Below are positions 24,048 through 64,000 of a DNA stretch of 64,000 bases, piece after piece (position 1 is the first letter of the stretch; every line of letters begins with the position of its first letter). The stretch lies in contig JAOALC010000001.1 in the NCBI GenBank assembly GCA_025153775.1, forward strand, positions 1-64,000, given 5' to 3'. The stretch is from SAR92 clade bacterium H231. GTDB taxonomy: Bacteria; Pseudomonadota; Gammaproteobacteria; Pseudomonadales; Porticoccaceae. The notes beneath the pieces were generated by a model. That model worked only from the letters and a program-made list of their open reading frames with translations, made no database searches and had not been told where the DNA came from. The translations under genes were made by a program, and so were the position numbers.

Positions 24048-24650
24048 ATGTATCCAACCATAGTGAACAATGACCAGTACACCGCTATGGTTAATGAGCG
24101 TCATTACCAGCGCATGATGGACAACCTCAACGATGCCGAAAAGCGCAAAATCAAGATGGTCACCATCAACCCGGCCCATGAAGACTTTAAAGATAATCCT
24201 GCCCAGAAGCTTCCACCGACGCTGATTATTAACCCGGATGATGATGCCATCTGTATGCAGGATGAAATCTTTGGGCCATTGTTGCCGATTAAAACCTACA
24301 AGCACTTCGAAGAGACTATTGGCTATATCAACGATAGGCCTCGCCCACTGGCCGCCTACTACTTTGGCTACGACAAGGCTGAGGAGAAGCGCTTCCTCAC
24401 GGGCACCACCTCTGGCGGCGTCTCTATCAATGATGTGATGTTCCATATGCTGCAGAAAGACCTGCCCTTTGGCGGTGTCGGTCCCAGCGGTATGGGGGCC
24501 TATCATGGCATCGAAGGCTTTAAGACGTTCAGTCATGCCAAAGGTATCTACCGTCAGCCAAAACGCATTCCTGTGGCTAAACTGGCTGGCTTTACGCCTC
24601 CCTATGGTCCGGCTTCTGAGAAGAATATTAAGGACAAAGTAAAGCGATGA
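24048..24650 (+). pseudogene. truncated coniferyl-aldehyde-dehydrogenase-like gene (C-terminal third only)
   Basis: 200 codons homologous to the C-terminal part of CalB-type aldehyde dehydrogenases: CMQDEIFGPLLPIKTY, TTSGGVSINDVMFHM and DLPFGGVGPSGMGAYHGIEG. The NAD-binding half and catalytic Cys region are absent, ATG 24048 has no ribosome binding site, and an in-frame TAA lies just upstream (24033-24035). It cannot be an active dehydrogenase. The stop overlaps an ATGA start of a further truncated reading frame (MSTERKRARTQ). Part of a deletion scar with the fragment at 24675-24806. Confidence 0.75.
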
Positions 24651-53816: not shown

Positions 53817-54899
53817 ATGGCTGAGTTTGATGTTACATTGCCAGGTAGACTTGGCAATCCTGATATGACGCTTTTTGATGATCCCAGGTTAGATCCGCGA
53901 ATCCTTAAAGCCTTTGCCTCTATGGTCCCGCCATCAGAGGAATTGTTACCGCCCGCATTGACCATTGATCCTAGCTATCAAGAGAGCCTGAGTTTTGTCG
54001 GTTACATGCACAGGCTTATGTGCAGTCAATACGCTTCAGCTGAAGCTCAAATGCCCCTATTCAGCAATATTCATTCTTCGCAGACGTTGATTCCCGGGCC
54101 TGCTGGTAATGATATTGATTTATTTATAGATAGACCGAATCAAAGCTTAGAAAGTCTGCCATGTATTGTTCATTTGCACGGTGGCGGTATGTCATTTGAT
54201 TCGGCTAAAAATCCTCATACAGTCAGATGGCGTAAATCGTTGGCCCAAATGGGTACAGTAGTGATTGGCGTTGAGTTTAGCAGTGAAACTCTTCGGACAG
54301 AGAATCAACCTTTTCCCGCTGGGCTAAACGACTGTGCTGCAGCGGTACGCTGGGCTGAAGATAATAAGGATCAGCTAGGGATTTCCTCATTGATCATTAT
54401 TGGAGAATCTGGTGGCGGAAACTTGGCGGTAGCTACTGCTATAAAGGCAAATATCGAAGGTTGGGTTGATGCTATCGACGGTGTCTATGCTATGGCACCC
54501 ATGATCTTGGGTTTTTATGGAGGCACACCTCCTGACTTAATGTCGTGGCGGGAAAATCTAAATTATCAGGGATCTCTAGAGATGATTCGCGCTATGACCA
54601 AGGTTTATGACCCATTGGATCAGCATGAGACCAACCCTATGGCCTGGCCCTTCCATGCTGGCGAGGATTGTTTGCGTGGTCTACCTCCTCATATCATTCT
54701 CAATTATGAGTTAGATCTTATTAGGGATGATGGGGTCACCTATGCCCGCAATCTCCGAGCTGCGGGAGTTGAGGCTACCTCGATCACGGTGGCAGGCATC
54801 CACCATGTTCCAGAGATTGCCATGCCTGATGCTGTGCCTGAATTAACCCGAGACACCATCGCCTCCATTGCTGCGTTTGCTAAGGGGTGCGTGGGTTAG
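53817..54899 (+). CDS. alpha/beta hydrolase (HSL family), cytoplasmic
   Basis: 360 aa esterase with oxyanion motif HLHGGGMSFD, nucleophile in IGESGGGNLAVA, acid in LDLIRDDG and His in AGIHHVPE. Unlike the hydrolase at 36504 it has no signal peptide, and the N-terminal roughly 100 residues form a cap. ATG 53817 with a weak AAGAAA. It stands between the receptor terminator and the UGSC operon and may act early in that pathway by cleaving an ester or lactone. Confidence 0.87.
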   Translation: MAEFDVTLPGRLGNPDMTLFDDPRLDPRILKAFASMVPPSEELLPPALTIDPSYQESLSFVGYMHRLMCSQYASAEAQMPLFSNIHSSQTLIPGPAGNDIDLFIDRPNQSLESLPCIVHLHGGGMSFDSAKNPHTVRWRKSLAQMGTVVIGVEFSSETLRTENQPFPAGLNDCAAAVRWAEDNKDQLGISSLIIIGESGGGNLAVATAIKANIEGWVDAIDGVYAMAPMILGFYGGTPPDLMSWRENLNYQGSLEMIRAMTKVYDPLDQHETNPMAWPFHAGEDCLRGLPPHIILNYELDLIRDDGVTYARNLRAAGVEATSITVAGIHHVPEIAMPDAVPELTRDTIASIAAFAKGCVG

Positions 54900-55009: not shown

Positions 55010-55043
55010 CGTAAGTGGGTGAGAATATTTTTTAGGAGTTCAC

Positions 55044-55580
55044 ATGATTAAATTTGTTGATCCCAGAGGGGAAGTTGCAACGCCGGAGCAATCCTATGAC
55101 CTATCCCGAGATGTGCGTCTCAACGACGGTGAAGGCATCACCGTGGCATTACTTGCCAATGGTTTTCCTGATTCCGAGTTGTTTACCAAAAAGGTGGGTC
55201 TGGCGCTTGAGAAGAGGCTACCCAAGATTCAAACGCTTTTTTGGAATAAACATAACGCGGGAGTTGCCGCCAATGATGAGATGCTCGATGAAATTTTTCC
55301 TCAATGTGACGTTGCTGTAGCTGCATACGGACACTGAGGCAGTTGTACTACCGGCACCGTGCGTGACGGATATAACATTGCTCAGCGAGGATTTCCGGTG
55401 GTGTCACTGATTACTGAAGATTTTTGGGATCAGGGGCAATTTGTCGCTAAATCTCTGGGTATGCCAAATGTCCCCAGAGTGAAGTTGCCACATCCGGTTG
55501 CTGGACTGGGAGAGGCAAAGATAGAGATTATTGCAGCGAGCATTATTGAGGACATAATAAATAGTTTTGCCAATGAGTGA
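55044..55580 (+). CDS. UGSC-family selenoprotein (in-frame TGA = selenocysteine 98)
   Basis: 178 aa if the TGA at 55335-55337 is decoded as selenocysteine. The context is ...VAVAAYGH-U-GSCTTGTVRDG, the UGSC motif of a selenoprotein family first noticed in marine metagenomes (established knowledge; function not known to me). Support: the same frame stays open for 80 codons after the TGA to a second TGA at 55578-55580; the downstream part reads as protein (QRGFPVVSLITEDFWDQGQFVAKSLGMPNVPRVKLPHPV); a SECIS-like hairpin sits 20 nt after the codon; and the next gene overlaps the true stop. A strong AGGAG (55034-55038) precedes ATG 55044. A gene caller would wrongly split it into 55044-55337 and 55359-55580. 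Presumably cytoplasmic; U98 and the Cys three residues on form a redox or nucleophilic UxxC centre. Requires selA-D elsewhere in the genome. Confidence 0.85.
55351..55369 (+). promoter_or_regulatory. bacterial SECIS-like hairpin
   Basis: CCGGCAC-CGTGC-GTGACGG: a stem of 3+3 bp around one G-A mismatch with a 5-nt loop whose second base is G. The loop begins 20 nt after the TGA. Bacterial SECIS elements have their apical loop about 16-37 nt after UGA with a G among the first two loop bases, so it fits the model. Inference without folding software. Confidence 0.55.
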
Positions 55581-56655
55581 TTTTTTAGACGCTGAAAACG
55601 AAGAGATGGCGCTGGAGCAACTCCATGATATGGGTTGCACAGATGGCCTGCCTGTCGTAATTCCCACGCAGGAGCGAGTTATCCGCTGTATTCTCGCCAG
55701 TGGGTTAGATGGCGATATGGTGCTTGGTGAATTAGGTCCGGGTATGGGCATTGCCACGGTAGAAAAAGTTGCCACGGCAGCCGTGATGGCAGGGTGTAAG
55801 TCTGACTATATGCCACTGGTGATAGCTGCGGTAAAAGCAGCGGCCAAGCCTGAGTTTGATCTCGCGGAATTACAGGCAACGACCCACTGCACTGCGCCAT
55901 TGATTATTGTAAATGGCCCAGCTCGCGAAACCTGTGGGCCGGTCGCATCGGGTTACGGCGCGCTGGGCCCAGGGCATAGAGCCAATGCCAGTATTGGTCG
56001 AGCCCTCAGGCTTTGTCTGATTAATATTGGCGGCGGTAGGCCAGGTATTTCCGATATGGCAATCCATGGCCATCCCGGAAAATTCACCTATTGTCTGGCA
56101 GAGGCAGAAGAGGAATCACCCTTTCCGCCCATGCATACCAGTCTGGGTTTTGACAAATCTGATAGTGTTGTCACTCTTTTAGGCTGTGAAGCGCCCCACT
56201 CCTGTCTTTATAGCGACAATGCAGATGACCCTGAGGATGCTGAGAAGCTTCTGAAAATTCTGTCCGTCGGCCTGACCAATATAGCTACTAATAATGCTGT
56301 TTTTGCCTCGGGAATGGCGCTCGTTTGTCTAGGCCCCAAGCACGCAAATGTGTTGGCCCGATCTGGTCATAGCAGAGAGTCGATACAACAGAGGCTCTGG
56401 GAACTGACGCATCTTTTAAAAGCCGATCATATCCGTTATGGCGGTGAATTCGGCAAAGCTTTTAGAGATAACCCCGAGGGGACTTACCCTGCGTTTAAAG
56501 TCCCACAACATATTCTGCTGATGGTCGCCGGCGGTATCGGATTGTATTCGATGGTGATGCCAAACTGGGGTGGGGCGGGTCATCAAAATTCTGCAGTCAG
56601 TGTGCAGGTTGAAAGTGACTTCTTTTGCGCTATCCCAGGGTTGGGAGGCGCTTAG
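55573..56655 (+). CDS. conserved partner protein of the UGSC selenoprotein, unknown function
   Basis: 360 aa from ATG 55573, which overlaps the selenoprotein stop by 8 nt; there is no separate ribosome binding site close by, so translation is probably coupled. The N-terminus LHDMGCTDGLPVVIPTQERV resembles a motif I associate with UGSC-containing proteins (recollection, not checked). Later motifs: TTHCTAPLIIVNGPARETCG, GALGPGHRANASIGRALRLCLINIGGGRPG, CEAPHSCLYSD. Many Gly and Cys residues and an AIGRA-type helix suggest an enzyme subunit. I cannot assign a fold. Likely forms a complex with the selenoprotein. Confidence 0.75.
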   Translation: MSDFLDAENEEMALEQLHDMGCTDGLPVVIPTQERVIRCILASGLDGDMVLGELGPGMGIATVEKVATAAVMAGCKSDYMPLVIAAVKAAAKPEFDLAELQATTHCTAPLIIVNGPARETCGPVASGYGALGPGHRANASIGRALRLCLINIGGGRPGISDMAIHGHPGKFTYCLAEAEEESPFPPMHTSLGFDKSDSVVTLLGCEAPHSCLYSDNADDPEDAEKLLKILSVGLTNIATNNAVFASGMALVCLGPKHANVLARSGHSRESIQQRLWELTHLLKADHIRYGGEFGKAFRDNPEGTYPAFKVPQHILLMVAGGIGLYSMVMPNWGGAGHQNSAVSVQVESDFFCAIPGLGGA

Positions 56656-56724: not shown

Positions 56725-57834
56725 ATGGATCCAATTACATTGTATGGAGGCGCATTTTCTCTCTATACCGGGCGAGCACGCAGCTATTTAATAAAATCTA
56801 AAATTGATTATAGAGAGGAGCCGCACTCCTCAGCGTACTTTTACGACGTAGTGCTACCAAAGGCTGGAGGTCGACGGGGGATACCCACTATCGAGTTCCC
56901 CAATGGTGATGTTATCCGTGATGGTGTTGCGATAATAGATCATTACGAAAGCACTAATGGTGGACAATTTTCCCCCGAAACCCCAAAGCAAAGAATTTTA
57001 AGCCTGCTATTTGATGTGATCGGTGCCGAGGGCATGTTGCGGCCTTGCATGCATTATCGCTTTAATCAGGGTGAAGAGGAGGGCGAGTTTCTGTTCTTTC
57101 ACTTTTCTACCGTTTATCCCGAAAAAGATGGTGCTAAAGATAGAATTGCCTTTATTAAAAGTACCGTTTTGCCGGCTTGGGGTGTAAGGCCCAATACCAA
57201 AGACCTTATTGAAACCATGCATTTTAAGACATTAAAAAAATTGAATGCACACTTTTCAAATTATCCCTATCTGTTCGGAAATAAACCCAGCATCGGTGAT
57301 TTTGGCATGATAGCCCCTCTTTACGGGCATCTTGGTAGAGATCCTGTGCCGCTTTCGTTAATGCAAATAAATGCGCCCAGATTGTTCCGGTGGGTTGAGA
57401 GAATGAATAGGTCAGAGCCAGATATTGGTGAGTTTGCGGATAAAAGCACCAACTATCTTGCTAATGATGAGATTCCTGAAACGCTCATTGATGTGCTTAA
57501 GCACTTTGCGACAGATTTTATTCCAGAAAGTGTGGCGGCTTATAACTGTGTAAGTCACTGGCTAGAGGCAAATAAAGATTTACCCGCCGGCACTGTGGCT
57601 GAGCGAGAGGTCGGGAGCTGCACCTTTGAGATCGATGGTATCGAGATCAATGCGGTTGCTCAGCCATTTCGGTTCTATTTACTGCATCGCCTGCAAAAGG
57701 AATTTGATAGCTTAAGCGAGGCAGACAGAGAAGATGTGCGCCAGCTGCTGAAGGATTGTCATATGGACGAGGTGCTCAACTTAAGGCTATCTCGTGAAAT
57801 GGGCAGAGCGAATAATCTGGAAGTCTGGCTTTAA
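56725..57834 (+). CDS. glutathione S-transferase-like protein with long C-terminal extension
   Basis: 369 aa. N-terminal thioredoxin-like domain (ITLYGGAFSLYTGRARSYLIKSKIDYRE; RRGIPTIEFPNGDVIRDGVAIIDHYE) and helical domain with YLFGNKPSIGDFGMIAPLYGHLGRDP. The last roughly 110 residues (TFEIDGIEINAVAQPFRFYLLHRLQKEF) resemble the extension of the protein at 24914, so both belong to an extended GST subgroup. ATG 56725 with AAGGAA 8 nt upstream. It lies in the UGSC operon and might deliver glutathione chemistry to the same substrate. Confidence 0.8.
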   Translation: MDPITLYGGAFSLYTGRARSYLIKSKIDYREEPHSSAYFYDVVLPKAGGRRGIPTIEFPNGDVIRDGVAIIDHYESTNGGQFSPETPKQRILSLLFDVIGAEGMLRPCMHYRFNQGEEEGEFLFFHFSTVYPEKDGAKDRIAFIKSTVLPAWGVRPNTKDLIETMHFKTLKKLNAHFSNYPYLFGNKPSIGDFGMIAPLYGHLGRDPVPLSLMQINAPRLFRWVERMNRSEPDIGEFADKSTNYLANDEIPETLIDVLKHFATDFIPESVAAYNCVSHWLEANKDLPAGTVAEREVGSCTFEIDGIEINAVAQPFRFYLLHRLQKEFDSLSEADREDVRQLLKDCHMDEVLNLRLSREMGRANNLEVWL

Positions 57835-58613
57835 TGCAAAATCCAGATGATACAGGTGGCCAGCGGCTCAAGCACAAAACTGCTTTGATTACCGGTGCTA
57901 GTCGCGGCATTGGTTATGCCATTGCCAAGTCGTTTGCTAGTCAAGGGGCAAACTTAGTTCTCAGTGCCTTTAATGAAGCCGGGCTTGTGAAAGCCAAGGC
58001 CGAACTTGATGGCTACGGTGTGGATATCTCCTACCTGGCCACGGATATTAGTTCGCCAGATTCAATAGAAGCGTTATTTGCTTTTGCCGTGGAGCGTCAT
58101 CCACAGCTGGATATACTGGTCAACAATGCCGGTATTCACATTGCAAAACCTTTTACCGATCACGGTTTGGACGAGTTTGATCACCTGATGAAGACTAATG
58201 TCTACTCGGTTTTCCAGCTTACTCAACAGGCGATTAGACATATGCAAAACTTGGGTCGCGGCAAGGTCATCAATGTGGCCTCTGTAGCTGGTCTGCGGGG
58301 CAGTATGAATTCGGCGGCCTACAATACTTCAAAGCATGCAATTGTGGGCCTAACCCGCTGTGTCGCACTGGAGAATGCAAAGAATGGCATCAATGTTAAT
58401 GCCATCTGCCCTGGCATTGTCGAGACCGATCTTATTAAAGGGGTCGAACAGCGTATGGAGACCCAAGGCATGCCGCCTGAGGAGTTCCGCGAGCGAATTC
58501 TTGCTCAAATACCCATTGGCAGGCTGTTACAGCCAGAGGAAATAGCCAATATAGCGGTCTTTCTCGCCAGCAGTGAATCCGATGGCATGAGCGGTGAGAC
58601 CATCAGTATTTAG
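57834..58613 (+). CDS. SDR family oxidoreductase
   Basis: 259 aa classical short-chain dehydrogenase with intact cofactor motif TALITGASRGIGYAIA, LVNNAGIH, Ser in NVASVAGLRGSMNS and Y-x-x-x-K in AAYNTSKHAIVG; resembles 3-hydroxyacyl-CoA/3-oxoacyl reductases. Its ATG shares one base with the preceding stop (TAATG), showing coupling. Within the UGSC operon it would oxidise a hydroxyl to a ketone. Confidence 0.92.
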   Translation: MQNPDDTGGQRLKHKTALITGASRGIGYAIAKSFASQGANLVLSAFNEAGLVKAKAELDGYGVDISYLATDISSPDSIEALFAFAVERHPQLDILVNNAGIHIAKPFTDHGLDEFDHLMKTNVYSVFQLTQQAIRHMQNLGRGKVINVASVAGLRGSMNSAAYNTSKHAIVGLTRCVALENAKNGINVNAICPGIVETDLIKGVEQRMETQGMPPEEFRERILAQIPIGRLLQPEEIANIAVFLASSESDGMSGETISI

Positions 58614-58651: not shown

Positions 58652-61078
58652 GTGACTGCACAGAATACTATTAAAAATTCACCCTTTCAGGACCTTCTGG
58701 TCGTCGACATTGGAGGCACAGTTGCCAGTGGCTACGCCGGTAAGCTATTTGCTGATTATGGGGCGAGGGTAGTCAACCTGGAACCATCGCAGGGGTTTTC
58801 TACTCGCCGGATTGAGCCACTATTAAATAATGGCAACAGTGCTATCCACGGGTATCTTCATGCCAATAAGGAAAGTGTATGCTGCGATGATCCCGTGACG
58901 GGCCATCCAGCCATTGCCGCTGCAGATTTGGTGCTGCTGGACCTGAGTACTTTGCCCTCAACTGTATCCATTGATGATTTTGATACTAATGTCTGCGCTA
59001 TTAGTTGGTATGGATTGAATGGGCCTTATGCGGATTTTAACGGCTCCAATGCGTCGATTTATGCGCTCACTGGGCTGATGCAGGGTGTCGGCGAATCTCA
59101 GGGTCCACCGATTATTCCTACGGGGTACCAACCGCAAATTGTAGGCGGCTTGAGTGCTTTTAATGGTGCGACAGGCTATCTATTGGGTCAGCACCTCAAG
59201 GGAGATGATAAGCTCGCCGCTTTTTGTCTTGATGCCTCAATCTTGGAGGCTAACATGTGCCTCACCGATATTGGTGCGGCCATGAGTTTTAATCAGGAAC
59301 CCCTGCCACAAAGAATGGGTATCAATCGCTTTGCCCCAACATATCCTCTGGGCATATGGCCTTGCAAGGATGGCTGGCTGGGGGTGACTGTACTCAATCC
59401 TGCGCAATGGTTCGCTTTTTGTGAATTATTGGGTCTAGATGATTTCGCTGCTGAACCCAAATATCAGAACAGCTTGGCCAGATTAGAGGATGTGGAAATA
59501 CTGGAGCCTCGAATTCTTGAGGCCCTGTCACGGCACAGTGCCGAGGATCTGTTCTACAGAGGGCAGGGCATGCGCATTCCACTTGCGCGGGTGCCAACCA
59601 TGGAAGAGTTATTAATGGTTGATCAATATGTCCAGCGTCAGGCTTTTAGTGAATACAGTTGCGATGGTGATACTTTTCAAGCGCCTTCCTGCCCCTTTAG
59701 GCTCTTGGAGACGCCACCACTGTTTGGTGGAGAGGCTGCCAATCTTGGAGCAGATAATCAGGGCTGGGATACTGAGAGTCTATCTACCAAAGATTCACTG
59801 GATACGAGCCAGTGCTGCAGCAAGGGAGAAGGCGACTCAACTATCTCGCAAGGACCACTTGAGGGCATTACCATTGTCGACCTTTCAATGGGCTGGGCTG
59901 GGCCTTTGGCGACACGCAATTTGGCTGATTTAGGTGCCACCGTTATTAAAATAGAGAGCTGCACGCGTTTTGACTGGTTTCGAAGCTGGGAGGCCAGTCA
60001 AGAGTGGATAGACAACAATGGCGCCGAGAAAGAGGTACGGTTTATTAATCTCAACCGTAATAAACTGGATGTCACTCTGGACTTTGAATCGAAAGTTGGC
60101 AGAGATCTACTACTGCGATTAGTGGCTAAAGCAGACGCCGTGATTGAAAACTACTCTGGCGGTGTACTACCTAAACTTAAACTGAATTATCCGGTGCTTA
60201 GAGAGGTTAATCCTCAATTGGTGATGGTGTCCATGCCCGCCTTTGGTGGTACAGGGCCCTGGGCTAAATTTCGTGCCTATGGTTCTACCGTTGAACAGTC
60301 GGCAGGGTTGCCCCATTTGCAGGGCAGCGAGCACCAACCGCCGACCATGCTGCATGTTGCCTTTGGTGATGCCATTGCCGGTCTCTATGGCAGCGCTGCG
60401 CTGCTCACGGCTCTTTTTCATAAAAAGAAAACTGGCCAGGGCCAGTTTGTAGATCTTAGTCAGGTCGAGTGCCTGTTGCCCCATGCAGTGCATGGTGTGG
60501 TGCATCAGTCGGTCAATAATAAGCCACCTTTGCGTCAGGGAAATTTTCATCCGAACTATTTTATTCATGCTGTCTTTGCCTGCGAGGGCGAAGAGCAATG
60601 GATACTGATTCAAGTGGAAACCGAACAGCAGTGGAATTCAGCCGCCGAGCAAATACCGACTCTCCAGCAGTTTGATAAATTAAGCCCAGACCAGCGGCGG
60701 GCCAGTTTTAAAGATATACAGCAGTCTCTGACTGATTGGACTGCGACCCAGCAGGCCAAGGGATTGATGCATAAGCTGCAATCCGTCGGTGTGATCGCGA
60801 TTGCCCTTAACAGTGCCTCTGACTTAATGGATGATCCCCATCTGCTTGCTCGTGGCTATATGCAATTTATTACGCGAGATTTTATGGGTGAGCAGCCCCA
60901 TCCCAGTTCTCCCTGGAGACCCGGCAGAGAGGCGATTCCGATCAGGACACCAGCGCCTACGTTAGGGCAACATAACCAGCAGTTGCTCGGTGGGCTTTTG
61001 GGACTCTCCGACAGTCAATTAGAAATATTAAATCAAGACGGCATCATTGGTAACAAACCACGACTTGCCGAGCGCTAA
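58652..61078 (+). CDS. CaiB/BaiF-type CoA-transferase, tandem fusion
   Basis: 808 aa made of two family III CoA-transferase modules. First, residues about 10-370, starts FQDLLVVDIGGTVASGYAGKLFADYGARVVNLE; second, about 405-800, starts LEGITIVDLSMGWAGPLATRNLADLGATVIKIE, joined by a Ser/Asp-rich linker. Candidate catalytic Asp residues appear in both (CLDASILEAN and FVDLSQVECLLPH). Moves CoA between acids without ATP. GTG 58652. Doubled length is known in this family. It indicates that the pathway intermediates are CoA thioesters. Confidence 0.9.
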   Translation: MTAQNTIKNSPFQDLLVVDIGGTVASGYAGKLFADYGARVVNLEPSQGFSTRRIEPLLNNGNSAIHGYLHANKESVCCDDPVTGHPAIAAADLVLLDLSTLPSTVSIDDFDTNVCAISWYGLNGPYADFNGSNASIYALTGLMQGVGESQGPPIIPTGYQPQIVGGLSAFNGATGYLLGQHLKGDDKLAAFCLDASILEANMCLTDIGAAMSFNQEPLPQRMGINRFAPTYPLGIWPCKDGWLGVTVLNPAQWFAFCELLGLDDFAAEPKYQNSLARLEDVEILEPRILEALSRHSAEDLFYRGQGMRIPLARVPTMEELLMVDQYVQRQAFSEYSCDGDTFQAPSCPFRLLETPPLFGGEAANLGADNQGWDTESLSTKDSLDTSQCCSKGEGDSTISQGPLEGITIVDLSMGWAGPLATRNLADLGATVIKIESCTRFDWFRSWEASQEWIDNNGAEKEVRFINLNRNKLDVTLDFESKVGRDLLLRLVAKADAVIENYSGGVLPKLKLNYPVLREVNPQLVMVSMPAFGGTGPWAKFRAYGSTVEQSAGLPHLQGSEHQPPTMLHVAFGDAIAGLYGSAALLTALFHKKKTGQGQFVDLSQVECLLPHAVHGVVHQSVNNKPPLRQGNFHPNYFIHAVFACEGEEQWILIQVETEQQWNSAAEQIPTLQQFDKLSPDQRRASFKDIQQSLTDWTATQQAKGLMHKLQSVGVIAIALNSASDLMDDPHLLARGYMQFITRDFMGEQPHPSSPWRPGREAIPIRTPAPTLGQHNQQLLGGLLGLSDSQLEILNQDGIIGNKPRLAER

Positions 61079-61131: not shown

Positions 61132-64000
61132 ATGCAGTCTCAAGGAATACTTATCGCCAACCGAGGCGAGATATCAATCCGAATTGCACGCGCCGCAGCG
61201 GATATGGGTATCAGGTCGGTAGCCGTTTATTCGAGCGATGACCACAATAGTCTGCACACCAAGATTGCCAATGAAGCTGTATTACTTCCCGGAACGGGCG
61301 CTCAGGCTTACCTTGATATTGAGCAGATTATACTGGCAGCTCAAGCAGCTAACTGTGATGCTATCCACCCGGGATACGGATTTTTATCTGAGCGTGCAGA
61401 TCTGGCGGCAGGCTGTGTGGCGGCAGGAATTACCTTTATCGGGCCCAGTGAAGCGCACCTAAAACTCTTCGGTGACAAAGGTGCCGCAAGGCGAGCAGCG
61501 ATTGACGCCGGAGTGCCGGTGTTAGCGGGAACGGATCATGCTGTGACCCTAGAGCAGCTAACTGAATTTTTCGATACTGTTAATGGATCCATTATTATCA
61601 AAGCCGTTGCCGGTGGTGGTGGCCGCGGCACTCGCATAGTACACAAAAAAGAAGATCTCGAAGAGGCCTTTGCGCGATGCCAATCTGAAGCGACGGCAGC
61701 CTTTGGTCTCGGCGATGTCTATGTCGAAGAATTTTTGGCGCGTGCCAGACATATTGAAGTGCAAATACTGGGTGATTCGATGGGTAATATCGTTCACTTT
61801 GGAGAGCGGGAATGCTCTGTTCAGCGGCGCAACCAAAAAGTCGTCGAAATTGCGCCGGCGCCGAATCTATCAGCCAGTCTGCGGGACAAGATTATTAGTG
61901 CCGCGGTTAGTTTTGCTCAGCAGCAAAAGTATACAAGCCTCGGCACCTTTGAGTTTTTAGTCGATGACAGTGGCTCAAATGCTGGCGATTCCGGTGACAC
62001 AATCGCAGATGATCAGTTTGTCTTTATCGAGGCCAATGCTCGGCTACAGGTGGAGCATACAGTGACCGAGGAAGTTACAGGTTTTGATCTGGTGCGCGGT
62101 CAGATCCAGATTGCCCTGGGGTCTTCGCTGGCCGAGCTTGGTCTGGATGCCAAGGCATCGCTGAGCATATCCGGGTTTGCCATACAGGCTAGGGTCAATT
62201 TAGAAACCATCAATAGCGATGGCACTGTTATGCCAGGCTCTGGCATCTTAGCCAGATATGAACCGCCCAACGGTCCTGGTGTGCGGACTGATGGCTTTGG
62301 CTATGTAGGTTACAATACCAGCACCGCGTTTGATTCGCTGCTGGCGAAAGTGATTGTCCATGAACGCTCAGCGCAGTTTGAAGATGCCGCTAGAAAAACT
62401 ATCAGAGCACTCTCTGAATTTCATCTAGAGGGGGTCAGAAATAATATTTCCTTCCTTAAAAATATTATCTCCCACCGCGACTTTATCGAAGGTGCTGTTC
62501 ACACTCGCTGGGTTGAGGAGCAGATCGATCAGTTAACCACCGACTGGCAGGGTCCAGACCTCTTTGTGGCCTCAGCGCCCACAGACAAGGCCAATGATGG
62601 TATTGTCGGTACAGCTGTAAACACCAATGACCCTCTGGCCCTGTTCACCCATAAAAATGCATCGGTACAGGCGACAGCAAATGAGCCCCAGAGTATTGAT
62701 ACACCCGATGGCCTGCAGGCGGTCTGCTCACCCATTCAGGGCACTATCGTTGCTATTGAGGCTGGGGTCGGTGAGCAGGTCAGAGCTGGTGATGCAGTGG
62801 TAGTAGTCGAAGCGATGAAAATGGAGCATGTGATTGTCGCTGAGTGCGATGCGGTTGTTCGCCAAGTGACTATGGAAGTGGGCCATGTTGTTCGGGAAGG
62901 GTATCCAATTTTATTCCTTGAAGAAGCGGAAGTAGCAGAGAGAGACGAGATTTATAAAGAGCAGTTAGATCTGAATTATATTCGCCCCGACTTACAGGAA
63001 AACTTTGATCGCCATGCCTATACGCTGGACGAACAGAGACCTGAGGCAGTGGCAAAAAGAAGGGCGCGCGGTGGTCGTATGGCTCGGGAAAATATTGCCG
63101 AATTAGTCGATCAGGACTCCTTTAAAGAGTACTGGCCCCTAGTGGTTGCGCGCCAGCATCAGCGCCATGATATGGAGACATTGCGCAAGCGCACCCCGGC
63201 GGACGGATTGATCGGTGGAACCGCTACCATTAACGCAGATCTGTTCGGCGATGAGGCCTCCTCGGCCATGGTGGTGCATTACGATTACACAGTGCTGGCA
63301 GGGACTCAGGGCGGCAGAAACCACTACAAACAAGATCGACTATTTGAACTTGCCTTAAGATTTCGTATGCCTTTGGTACTGTTCAGTGAGGGTGGCGGCG
63401 GACGTCCGGGAGACGACGATTTAGGTCCCGGTGTCTCCTTCGATACCCATACATTTACGCAGTTTGCCAAGCTATCTGGTGCGGTCCCCATGATTGGCGT
63501 CAACCATGGGCGCTGCTTCGCAGGCAATACCGTATTGCTGGCCTGTTGTGATGTCATTATAGCGACCAAAGATTCCACCATAGGTATGGGTGGCCCGGCA
63601 ATGATCGAGGGCGGTGGTTTGGGTGTCTACACACCCGAAGAGGTGGGCCCCATGTCATTCCAGGTGCCCAATGGAGTGGTTGATATTCTGGTTGATGACG
63701 AAGCTGAAGCGGTATCGGTGGCGAAGAAATATCTGTCCTACTTTCAGGGAACTATTGATCGTTGGGAAGCACCAGATCAGCTGAGTTTGCGTCATGTTAT
63801 CCCTGAAAATCGACTGCGGCTCTACGACATGCGAGAGGTTATCGAGACGCTGGCAGATGTCGATTCGGTGTTAGAAGTTAGAGAAAAATTTGGTATTGGA
63901 GTTATCACTGCATTAATCCGCATCGAGGGTAAACCCATGGGAGTGATCGCCAATAATCCCCACCATCTCTCCGGTGCTATTGATTCTGACGGTGCGGACA
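61132..64000 (+). CDS. biotin-dependent acyl-CoA carboxylase, BC-BCCP-CT fusion (3' end outside window)
   Basis: Open to the right edge; 956 codons visible. Biotin carboxylase domain (ILIANRGEISIRIARAA, HPGYGFLSERADLA, VVAGGGGRGTR-type loop as VAGGGGRGTRI, EANARLQVEHTVTEEVTGFD), biotinyl domain with attachment Lys563 in VVEAMKMEHVI, then a carboxyltransferase (LFSEGGGGRPGDDD, IGVNHGRCFAGNTVLLACCDVIIA). A roughly 15-residue acidic insertion (DDSGSNAGDSGDTIADDQ) interrupts the strand pair before the EANARLQ motif. ATG 61132 with GGGGAT upstream, 53 bp after the CoA-transferase. Carboxylates an acyl-CoA such as propionyl-, methylcrotonyl- or geranyl-CoA; which one is not inferable. Confidence 0.92.
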   Translation, partial: MQSQGILIANRGEISIRIARAAADMGIRSVAVYSSDDHNSLHTKIANEAVLLPGTGAQAYLDIEQIILAAQAANCDAIHPGYGFLSERADLAAGCVAAGITFIGPSEAHLKLFGDKGAARRAAIDAGVPVLAGTDHAVTLEQLTEFFDTVNGSIIIKAVAGGGGRGTRIVHKKEDLEEAFARCQSEATAAFGLGDVYVEEFLARARHIEVQILGDSMGNIVHFGERECSVQRRNQKVVEIAPAPNLSASLRDKIISAAVSFAQQQKYTSLGTFEFLVDDSGSNAGDSGDTIADDQFVFIEANARLQVEHTVTEEVTGFDLVRGQIQIALGSSLAELGLDAKASLSISGFAIQARVNLETINSDGTVMPGSGILARYEPPNGPGVRTDGFGYVGYNTSTAFDSLLAKVIVHERSAQFEDAARKTIRALSEFHLEGVRNNISFLKNIISHRDFIEGAVHTRWVEEQIDQLTTDWQGPDLFVASAPTDKANDGIVGTAVNTNDPLALFTHKNASVQATANEPQSIDTPDGLQAVCSPIQGTIVAIEAGVGEQVRAGDAVVVVEAMKMEHVIVAECDAVVRQVTMEVGHVVREGYPILFLEEAEVAERDEIYKEQLDLNYIRPDLQENFDRHAYTLDEQRPEAVAKRRARGGRMARENIAELVDQDSFKEYWPLVVARQHQRHDMETLRKRTPADGLIGGTATINADLFGDEASSAMVVHYDYTVLAGTQGGRNHYKQDRLFELALRFRMPLVLFSEGGGGRPGDDDLGPGVSFDTHTFTQFAKLSGAVPMIGVNHGRCFAGNTVLLACCDVIIATKDSTIGMGGPAMIEGGGLGVYTPEEVGPMSFQVPNGVVDILVDDEAEAVSVAKKYLSYFQGTIDRWEAPDQLSLRHVIPENRLRLYDMREVIETLADVDSVLEVREKFGIGVITALIRIEGKPMGVIANNPHHLSGAIDSDGAD

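Follow-up and report, generated by a model that had tools for sequence, protein, structure and literature searches.

The open frame at 55044-55580 of the window (the whole stretch of DNA analysed, 64,000 nucleotides) is, by the evidence of sequence comparison, a genuine selenoprotein gene of the UGSC family, in which an in-frame TGA is taken to encode selenocysteine (Sec, U). The UGSC family was already in print by 2008 as part of the GOS selenoproteome (PMC2398784), so the selenoprotein claim is itself not new; what we offer in addition is a link to the reductase subunits GrdB and PrdB, a constant partner protein and a thioredoxin setting. The GOS family (PF24696/NF041046) shares with the present protein the same domain, the UGSC motif, the exchange of Sec for Cys and the occurrence of fusions with a second domain, the 2008 passage on UGSC naming such a fusion domain 'Unknown_1' (PMC2398784). 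The present protein differs in that it is stand-alone and accompanied by a separate, overlapping partner gene, and Unknown_1 is not equated here with this partner. A figure of 8.2% of selenoprotein genes is given for UGSC in a passage of a further report (PMC9402790). The initial annotation described the reaction of the family as undescribed, in agreement with the UGSC passages of PMC2398784, PMC13188914, PMC9312934, PMC7539508, PMC5029168 and PMC9402790, none of which assigns a function. A link between UGSC and GrdB/PrdB was likewise not found in the accessible portions of the openly licensed literature, and an earlier report elsewhere is possible. With a link to GrdB/PrdB, a partner that is constant and a likely reductant, UGSC gains a chemistry that is open to test. 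The features discussed are listed in Table 1.

Table 1. Features of the UGSC locus in the window and on the adjoining part of the same contig (C1).
Feature	Position	Strand	Evidence or remark
Alpha/beta hydrolase (Abhydrolase_3), upstream of UGSC	53817..54899	+	3/5 close relatives
Shine-Dalgarno-like AGGAG upstream of UGSC start	55034..55038	+	sequence read by eye
UGSC-family selenoprotein gene, 178 residues, stop TGA 55578-55580	55044..55580	+	translation, profile matches, homologues
In-frame TGA, predicted selenocysteine U98; Cys101 completes UxxC	55335..55337	+	translation, relatives
Putative bacterial SECIS	55350..55370	+	hairpin 55351-55369, loop CGUGC 55358-55362, G in second place
Partner protein, 360 residues; 8-bp overlap with UGSC gene	55573..56655	+	BLAST, HMM against fused proteins
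GST-like protein (GST_N, GST_C matches)	56725..57834	+	beside UGSC in 3/5 close relatives
Short-chain dehydrogenase	57834..58613	+	5/5 close relatives
Long class III CoA-transferase (CaiB type)	58652..61078	+	CoA_transf_3, 3 stretches; 5/5 close relatives
Biotin-dependent carboxylase, fused domains	61132..64000	+	past window end, C1:61132-64536
selA	C1:64617-66032		downstream of window; 577.7 bits
selB	C1:66029-67960		after selA; 402.5 bits
selC (tRNA-Sec)	C1:67965-68058		after selB; 69.3

The UGSC gene and its in-frame TGA

Translation of 55044-55580 with TGA as U gives a frame that starts at ATG 55044, carries a single internal TGA at U98 in the context AAYGH-U-GSC and runs on for 80 codons, which confirms the initial annotation of one TGA placed exactly at the U of U-G-S-C and followed by good protein sequence. 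Given both the U98 codon and the terminal TGA, the same triplet would serve as Sec codon and as stop within one gene. The search against UGSC-family profiles suggested at the time returns PF24696 (UGSC) over residues 5-174 at 144.2 bits (E 6e-42), well above its gathering score of 25. The NF041046 model scores the window protein at 100.1 bits, which is under its equivalog cut-off of 125, and a pipeline that holds to this cut-off would therefore leave the gene unnamed even with read-through; among ten homologues scanned singly, the cut-off is reached by L027 only. The expectation that annotation misses or splits such genes is borne out by two plasmids with incomplete gene tables. Acidovorax p2-T1 has only the 97-codon first piece annotated, under the name of a hypothetical protein; the UGSC gene of Paracoccus pFER4 appears as two short hypothetical proteins. 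Copies of UGSC can be overlooked either through the NCBI cut-off or through a split at the TGA.

The columns of U98 and C101 are invariant in an alignment of 21 UGSC rows (Sec shown as C), and the 43 UGSC loci that carry a U or C motif divide into 30 with U and 13 with C. The TGA is retained at the U98 codon by all five close relatives compared (72-96% identical; titled SAR92 clade, Porticoccaceae, Halieaceae, Luminiphilus and Gammaproteobacteria), none of which has another stop or a frameshift in the gene. The dN/dS ratio after the TGA is 0.045-0.089 in these relatives (dS 0.38-2.6, partly saturated), and before the TGA it is 0.048 and 0.060 in the two of five for which it could be computed, dS being undefined in the other three. 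The conservation of the TGA and the purifying selection downstream of it uphold the earlier argument that the TGA did not arise by chance. The reading of the TGA as a true stop, created by nonsense mutation or sequencing error and leaving two pieces or a pseudogene, has the standard code and the existence of one broken UGSC gene (in the relative G662) on its side, but it is highly improbable, as the TGA is retained in five other records, selection persists past it, Sec machinery is present, Cys takes the Sec position in 13 homologues, and the G662 gene has Cys at the site, no SelB found, and its damage (a frame change and a later stop) elsewhere.

Selenocysteine machinery

The initial annotation proposed a search for selA, selB, selC and selD in the same genome and named the absence of selB or selC as evidence against a selenoprotein; all four genes are present in the window genome (G000; 2.93 Mb, 97.8% complete). 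The selA-selB-selC run starts 617 bp beyond the window end (Table 1), the SelB match (C1:66029-67915) spans model positions 1-578, and selD (445) lies on another contig. At the Rfam gathering threshold nothing is detected within the window, and the tRNA-Sec downstream is detected.

UGSC occurs in six of the 36 relatives searched, with SelB above cut-off in five of these and in two pieces in the sixth (G020); one relative (G033) has SelB without UGSC. In a phylum sample of 398 genomes (SelB at E 1e-65), UGSC is found in 5 and SelB in 52. The TGA forms in this sample (G000, G526 and G695) all coincide with SelB, and the Cys forms (G530 and G662) occur without it, G530 having one 114-bit stretch. 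Among the 17 TGA-form genomes tested, SelB is above cut-off in 14, in two pieces in two (G020 and G785), and without a match in one (G170), where the UGSC gene sits on a 3.1-kb contig. One of the three Cys-form genomes tested (G372) carries a partial SelB below cut-off. These distributions indicate that the Sec machinery and the Sec form of UGSC go together.

The two are also close neighbours in several genomes. UGSC lies at most 10 kb from a selA/selB match on one contig in G000, G001 (where the selB match is an N-terminal piece), G002, G020, G022, G349, G367 and G695, and within 10 kb of selB on the Paracoccus plasmids pFER4 and pBEN; it is not within 10 kb of selA/selB in G025, G126 and G526. 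The position of UGSC beside selA/selB in several lineages may explain why the Sec trait was kept or transferred there. Both plasmids (pFER4, L052; pBEN, L065) carry a TGA-form UGSC gene, the partner gene and selB, the last ~4.5 kb from UGSC. In G020, the two-piece SelB match (G020:C5:63571-65509) contains internal stops and lies ~2.5 kb from a TGA-form UGSC gene, which may be an error of assembly or a sign that the Sec trait has begun to decay.

Candidate SECIS element

The bacterial SECIS model, as stated in a passage of PMC13188914, calls for a loop of 3-9 nt with G in one of the first two places, a distance of 16-37 nt from the UGA and an energy of at most -7.5 kcal/mol. The window hairpin, 20 nt after the TGA, fits this model in loop size, G and spacing. 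Its core, at -6.0 kcal/mol, is short of -7.5, and with the outer stem it attains -10.2 kcal/mol, a value no better than that of shuffles (z -0.33). The -7.5 level is reached by 21 of the 30 TGA forms versus 3 of the 13 Cys forms, and a place in the best 5% against synonymous recodings by 13/30 and 3/13, respectively, with the window outside at 0.107; one TGA form (L039) has no hairpin that follows the rule. A different signature is given by the silent sites after the TGA, which are frozen in codons +5 to +11 (7/7 codons identical in L010-L014 and L016, 5/6 in L028), compared with 34-44% identical codons elsewhere at identical residues in five distant genes and 70-78% in the two nearest. The silent-site freeze argues strongly for a constraint on the putative element, and the hairpin energy alone argues for it weakly.

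A second group of UGSC genes (eight chosen loci) shares an 8-pair hairpin with 93.8% of cells paired and five cells changed on both sides, as high as in 0 of 500 shuffles. A G-C to C-G exchange is seen in 4/8 loci; pairs that are altered on both sides number two, which 68/500 shuffles reach. The USxC-type genes (again eight chosen loci) give a weaker result, with one both-sides-changed pair that is reached by 407/500, and their pair counts are not independent events, because a single genome contributes seven of the eight genes and the same sequences served to derive the structures.

The partner protein

The partner gene starts at ATG 55573. Its product has no Pfam or NCBIfam match, and none of the matches was convincing for the 16 homologues scanned. 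By BLAST and HMM comparison, it is the stand-alone form of the domain that lies C-terminal to UGSC in fused proteins. The partner is present at 42 of the 43 UGSC loci (24/25 + 18/18), the sole exception (L018) stopping at a contig edge; two of the loci, in Paracoccus ferrooxidans (L052) and Haloterrigena (L068), were found through the partner search and thus contain it by choice. For this count, 11 of 19 plasmid records were fetched, a Vibrio europaeus fusion (L066; weak partial match, no motif found) was left out, and the weak matches L022-L024, which have the look of FAD proteins, were dropped. UGSC and partner are fused in one frame at 11 loci, nine of which are in G367. The constant association suggests, on sequence grounds, that UGSC and the partner are the two subunits of one enzyme that would form a complex.

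G367, a 3.5-Mb genome of the same class, holds its nine UGSC-partner fusion genes at loci L029, L033-L040 and L079, all with TGA at the Sec site, and one UGSC copy lies between selB and selA. On two haloarchaeal plasmids (L051 and L062), partner genes flank a Cys-form UGSC gene on both sides. The fold prediction for the partner was unusable (pLDDT 34.7), and no credible relative (best E 0.038) emerged when the PDB was searched by sequence with UGSC, the UGSC profile, a PrdB-like protein and the partner. A thioredoxin-like N-terminus that was noticed by eye in the G695 partner (CHTC motif) was not upheld by Pfam (best E 0.063).

Similarity to glycine and proline reductases

The UGSC motif itself pointed to GrdB and PrdB. 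When 21 UGSC domains were scanned with E values of up to 10 admitted, TIGR01917 (GrdB) matches seven (best 2.6e-6) and TIGR04483 (PrdB) five (best 6.7e-4); the window protein has no match to either model in the same scan, and the Pfam model GRDB (PF07355) matches none of the 21 at E 10. The cut-off of the GrdB model is reached by none, the best TIGR01917 match scoring 26.6 bits versus 602.2. Because the scan also lists unrelated models at E 0.002-0.2, no more than the top two or three matches to GrdB/PrdB rise above the noise. The best TIGR01917 match covers model positions 322-407 of 431, i.e. the Sec end; in the clostridial proteins, as given in a passage of PMC3091704, Sec is at 350 of 436 in GrdB and at 152 of 242 in PrdB. 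A single comparison of the window protein with GrdB of Acetoanaerobium noterae yields E 6e-4 and places U98 on U350 and C101 on C353. The UGSC family profile pairs with GrdB with a probability of 95.9% and a pairwise E of 6.5e-9, and the UGSC HMM, with E values scaled to a nominal 1000 sequences, yields 6e-8 for GrdB, 4e-5 for PrdB and 1e-4, 0.009 and 0.03 for three PrdB-like proteins. The best true decoy, the IMP dehydrogenase of the window (E 0.008), outranks two of these three PrdB-like proteins; the 189 'decoys' of this control included two real UGSC genes. Among 400 shuffled proteins the lowest E is 5.1.

On sequence likeness, UGSC appears to be distantly homologous to the Sec domain of GrdB and PrdB, without being a member of either family. 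With GrdB (TIGR01917, PF07355) UGSC has in common the Sec-Gly-x-Cys site, a GIPVV turn after the site and a PHP-G stretch, but the likeness is limited to the C-terminal part of GrdB and the partner differs. PrdB (TIGR04483) is also a small Sec protein, with a UGTC site, and works with a separate larger subunit. That subunit type is not recognizable in the UGSC partner, as no match to PF09338 (Gly_reductase), which would mark pyruvoyl-forming GrdE/PrdA-type subunits, was found in 16 partner proteins at E 10. As a parallel to the FabH-like GrdC, genes resembling FabH close to UGSC in G022 and G025 were considered and, with two cases only, not used. A stand-alone GrdB/PrdB-type candidate selenoprotein is encoded in G126 (L045:1195-2103), where a PrdB-like protein has an in-frame TGA at a UPVC site.

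Gene neighbourhood

UGSC, partner, short-chain dehydrogenase and CoA-transferase stay together in all five relatives of the window lineage, and the carboxylase starts within the fetched flank in two of the five. Wider comparison was made over 25 UGSC regions, i.e. loci with longer flanks (mostly 5 kb or more per side; one genome supplies two of them). CaiB CoA-transferases are present in 11 of the 25, six of which are the window lineage. Thioredoxin reductase homologues are present in 8 of the 25, a count that is drawn from UGSC regions only; these are the regions of Roseovarius, Variovorax, Arthrobacter, Neorhizobium, Paracoccus versutus and Haloterrigena and two in G367. Six of the eight matches supplied the query themselves and only L064 and L065 were found with the query of another. 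The Roseovarius, Variovorax and Arthrobacter proteins are above the TIGR01292 cut-off, and the Arthrobacter region also has trxA. Neither the window nor C1:60000-79000 yielded a homologue of thioredoxin reductase. In glycine reductase, according to a passage of PMC3091704, electrons pass from NADPH to thioredoxin reductase and on to thioredoxin.

Elsewhere in the window, an open frame at 24048-24650 resembles, by eye, the C-terminal part of an aldehyde dehydrogenase; no N-terminal part is seen just upstream, and the frame is possibly a truncated gene.

Proposed enzyme

The gene, its Sec codon, the Sec machinery, the association with the partner, the similarity of the Sec domain and the presence of thioredoxin reductase near UGSC elsewhere can be read from the sequences, and from these we infer complex formation, the bond cleaved, the reaction, the substrate and the electron donor in the window organism. 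We propose, at what we would call even chances, a selenol enzyme that is fed by thioredoxin, has a partner to bind the substrate and, in the manner of glycine reductase, reductively breaks a carbon-heteroatom bond, here of an organic acid. In such an enzyme, the UGA at 55335-55337 would be read as Sec with the use of the selA, selB and selC encoded nearby downstream, and the UGSC protein would pair with the product of the overlapping gene at 55573-56655. With the substrate bound to the partner subunit, the selenol of Sec98 would attack the carbon-heteroatom bond, as homology with GrdB/PrdB suggests. The leaving group would then depart, the selenide would be resolved through Cys101, and the enzyme would be re-reduced by a thioredoxin-type donor. 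The organic acid product may enter central metabolism by way of the neighbouring CoA-transferase and carboxylase. A broader reading, to which we give less than even odds, counts UGSC and its partner as relatives of the glycine and proline reductases of clostridia that are widespread and tolerate oxygen. The pair would then use Sec (or Cys) to break a carbon-heteroatom bond of an acyl-CoA or an organic acid and would supply CoA-dependent catabolism in haloarchaea as well as in bacteria of sea and soil. It would also be a possible reason for the keeping or transfer of the Sec trait in those lineages where it lies beside selA and selB.

The roles of the two proteins could also be divided the other way, with the partner as the catalytic subunit and UGSC as a dedicated electron-transfer subunit that draws on thioredoxin or glutathione, as has been proposed for PrdC to PrdB. 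The partner is indeed more conserved than UGSC in L012-L014 (87-89% versus 72-74%), two haloarchaeal plasmids have two partner genes per one UGSC gene, and at L067 a partner occurs without UGSC within 6 kb. We regard this division as doubtful: UGSC aligns with the Sec domain of GrdB and PrdB, and it is these subunits that make contact with the substrate.

Predicted fold and a general redox role

The AlphaFold model of UGSC, a confident one (pLDDT 84; six close sequences), shows alternating strands and helices, with Sec98 predicted between strand 90-96 and helix 99-114. The best 50 matches of this model in the PDB are weak (query TM 0.31-0.52) and comprise mostly flavodoxin-like and other alpha/beta folds, together with some unrelated entries; none of the 50 is named thioredoxin. 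The predicted fold gives no support to the thioredoxin-like suggestion of 2008, without proving another fold.

The fold bears on a third assignment, already proposed in print for UGSC, in which this protein would have a thioredoxin-like fold and act as a general thiol-disulphide oxidoreductase or peroxidase, with the partner as its client or regulator. We consider this unlikely. UGSC does have a UxxC motif, a list of Trx-like fold proteins in PMC13188914 includes it, and a peroxidase activity of GrdB is reported, by the title of one paper. The alternating alpha/beta topology of the model and the lack of a thioredoxin among its best 50 PDB matches stand against such an assignment, and the general redox role is further disfavoured because the same partner is constant at 42/43 loci, an association that a general redox protein would not need.
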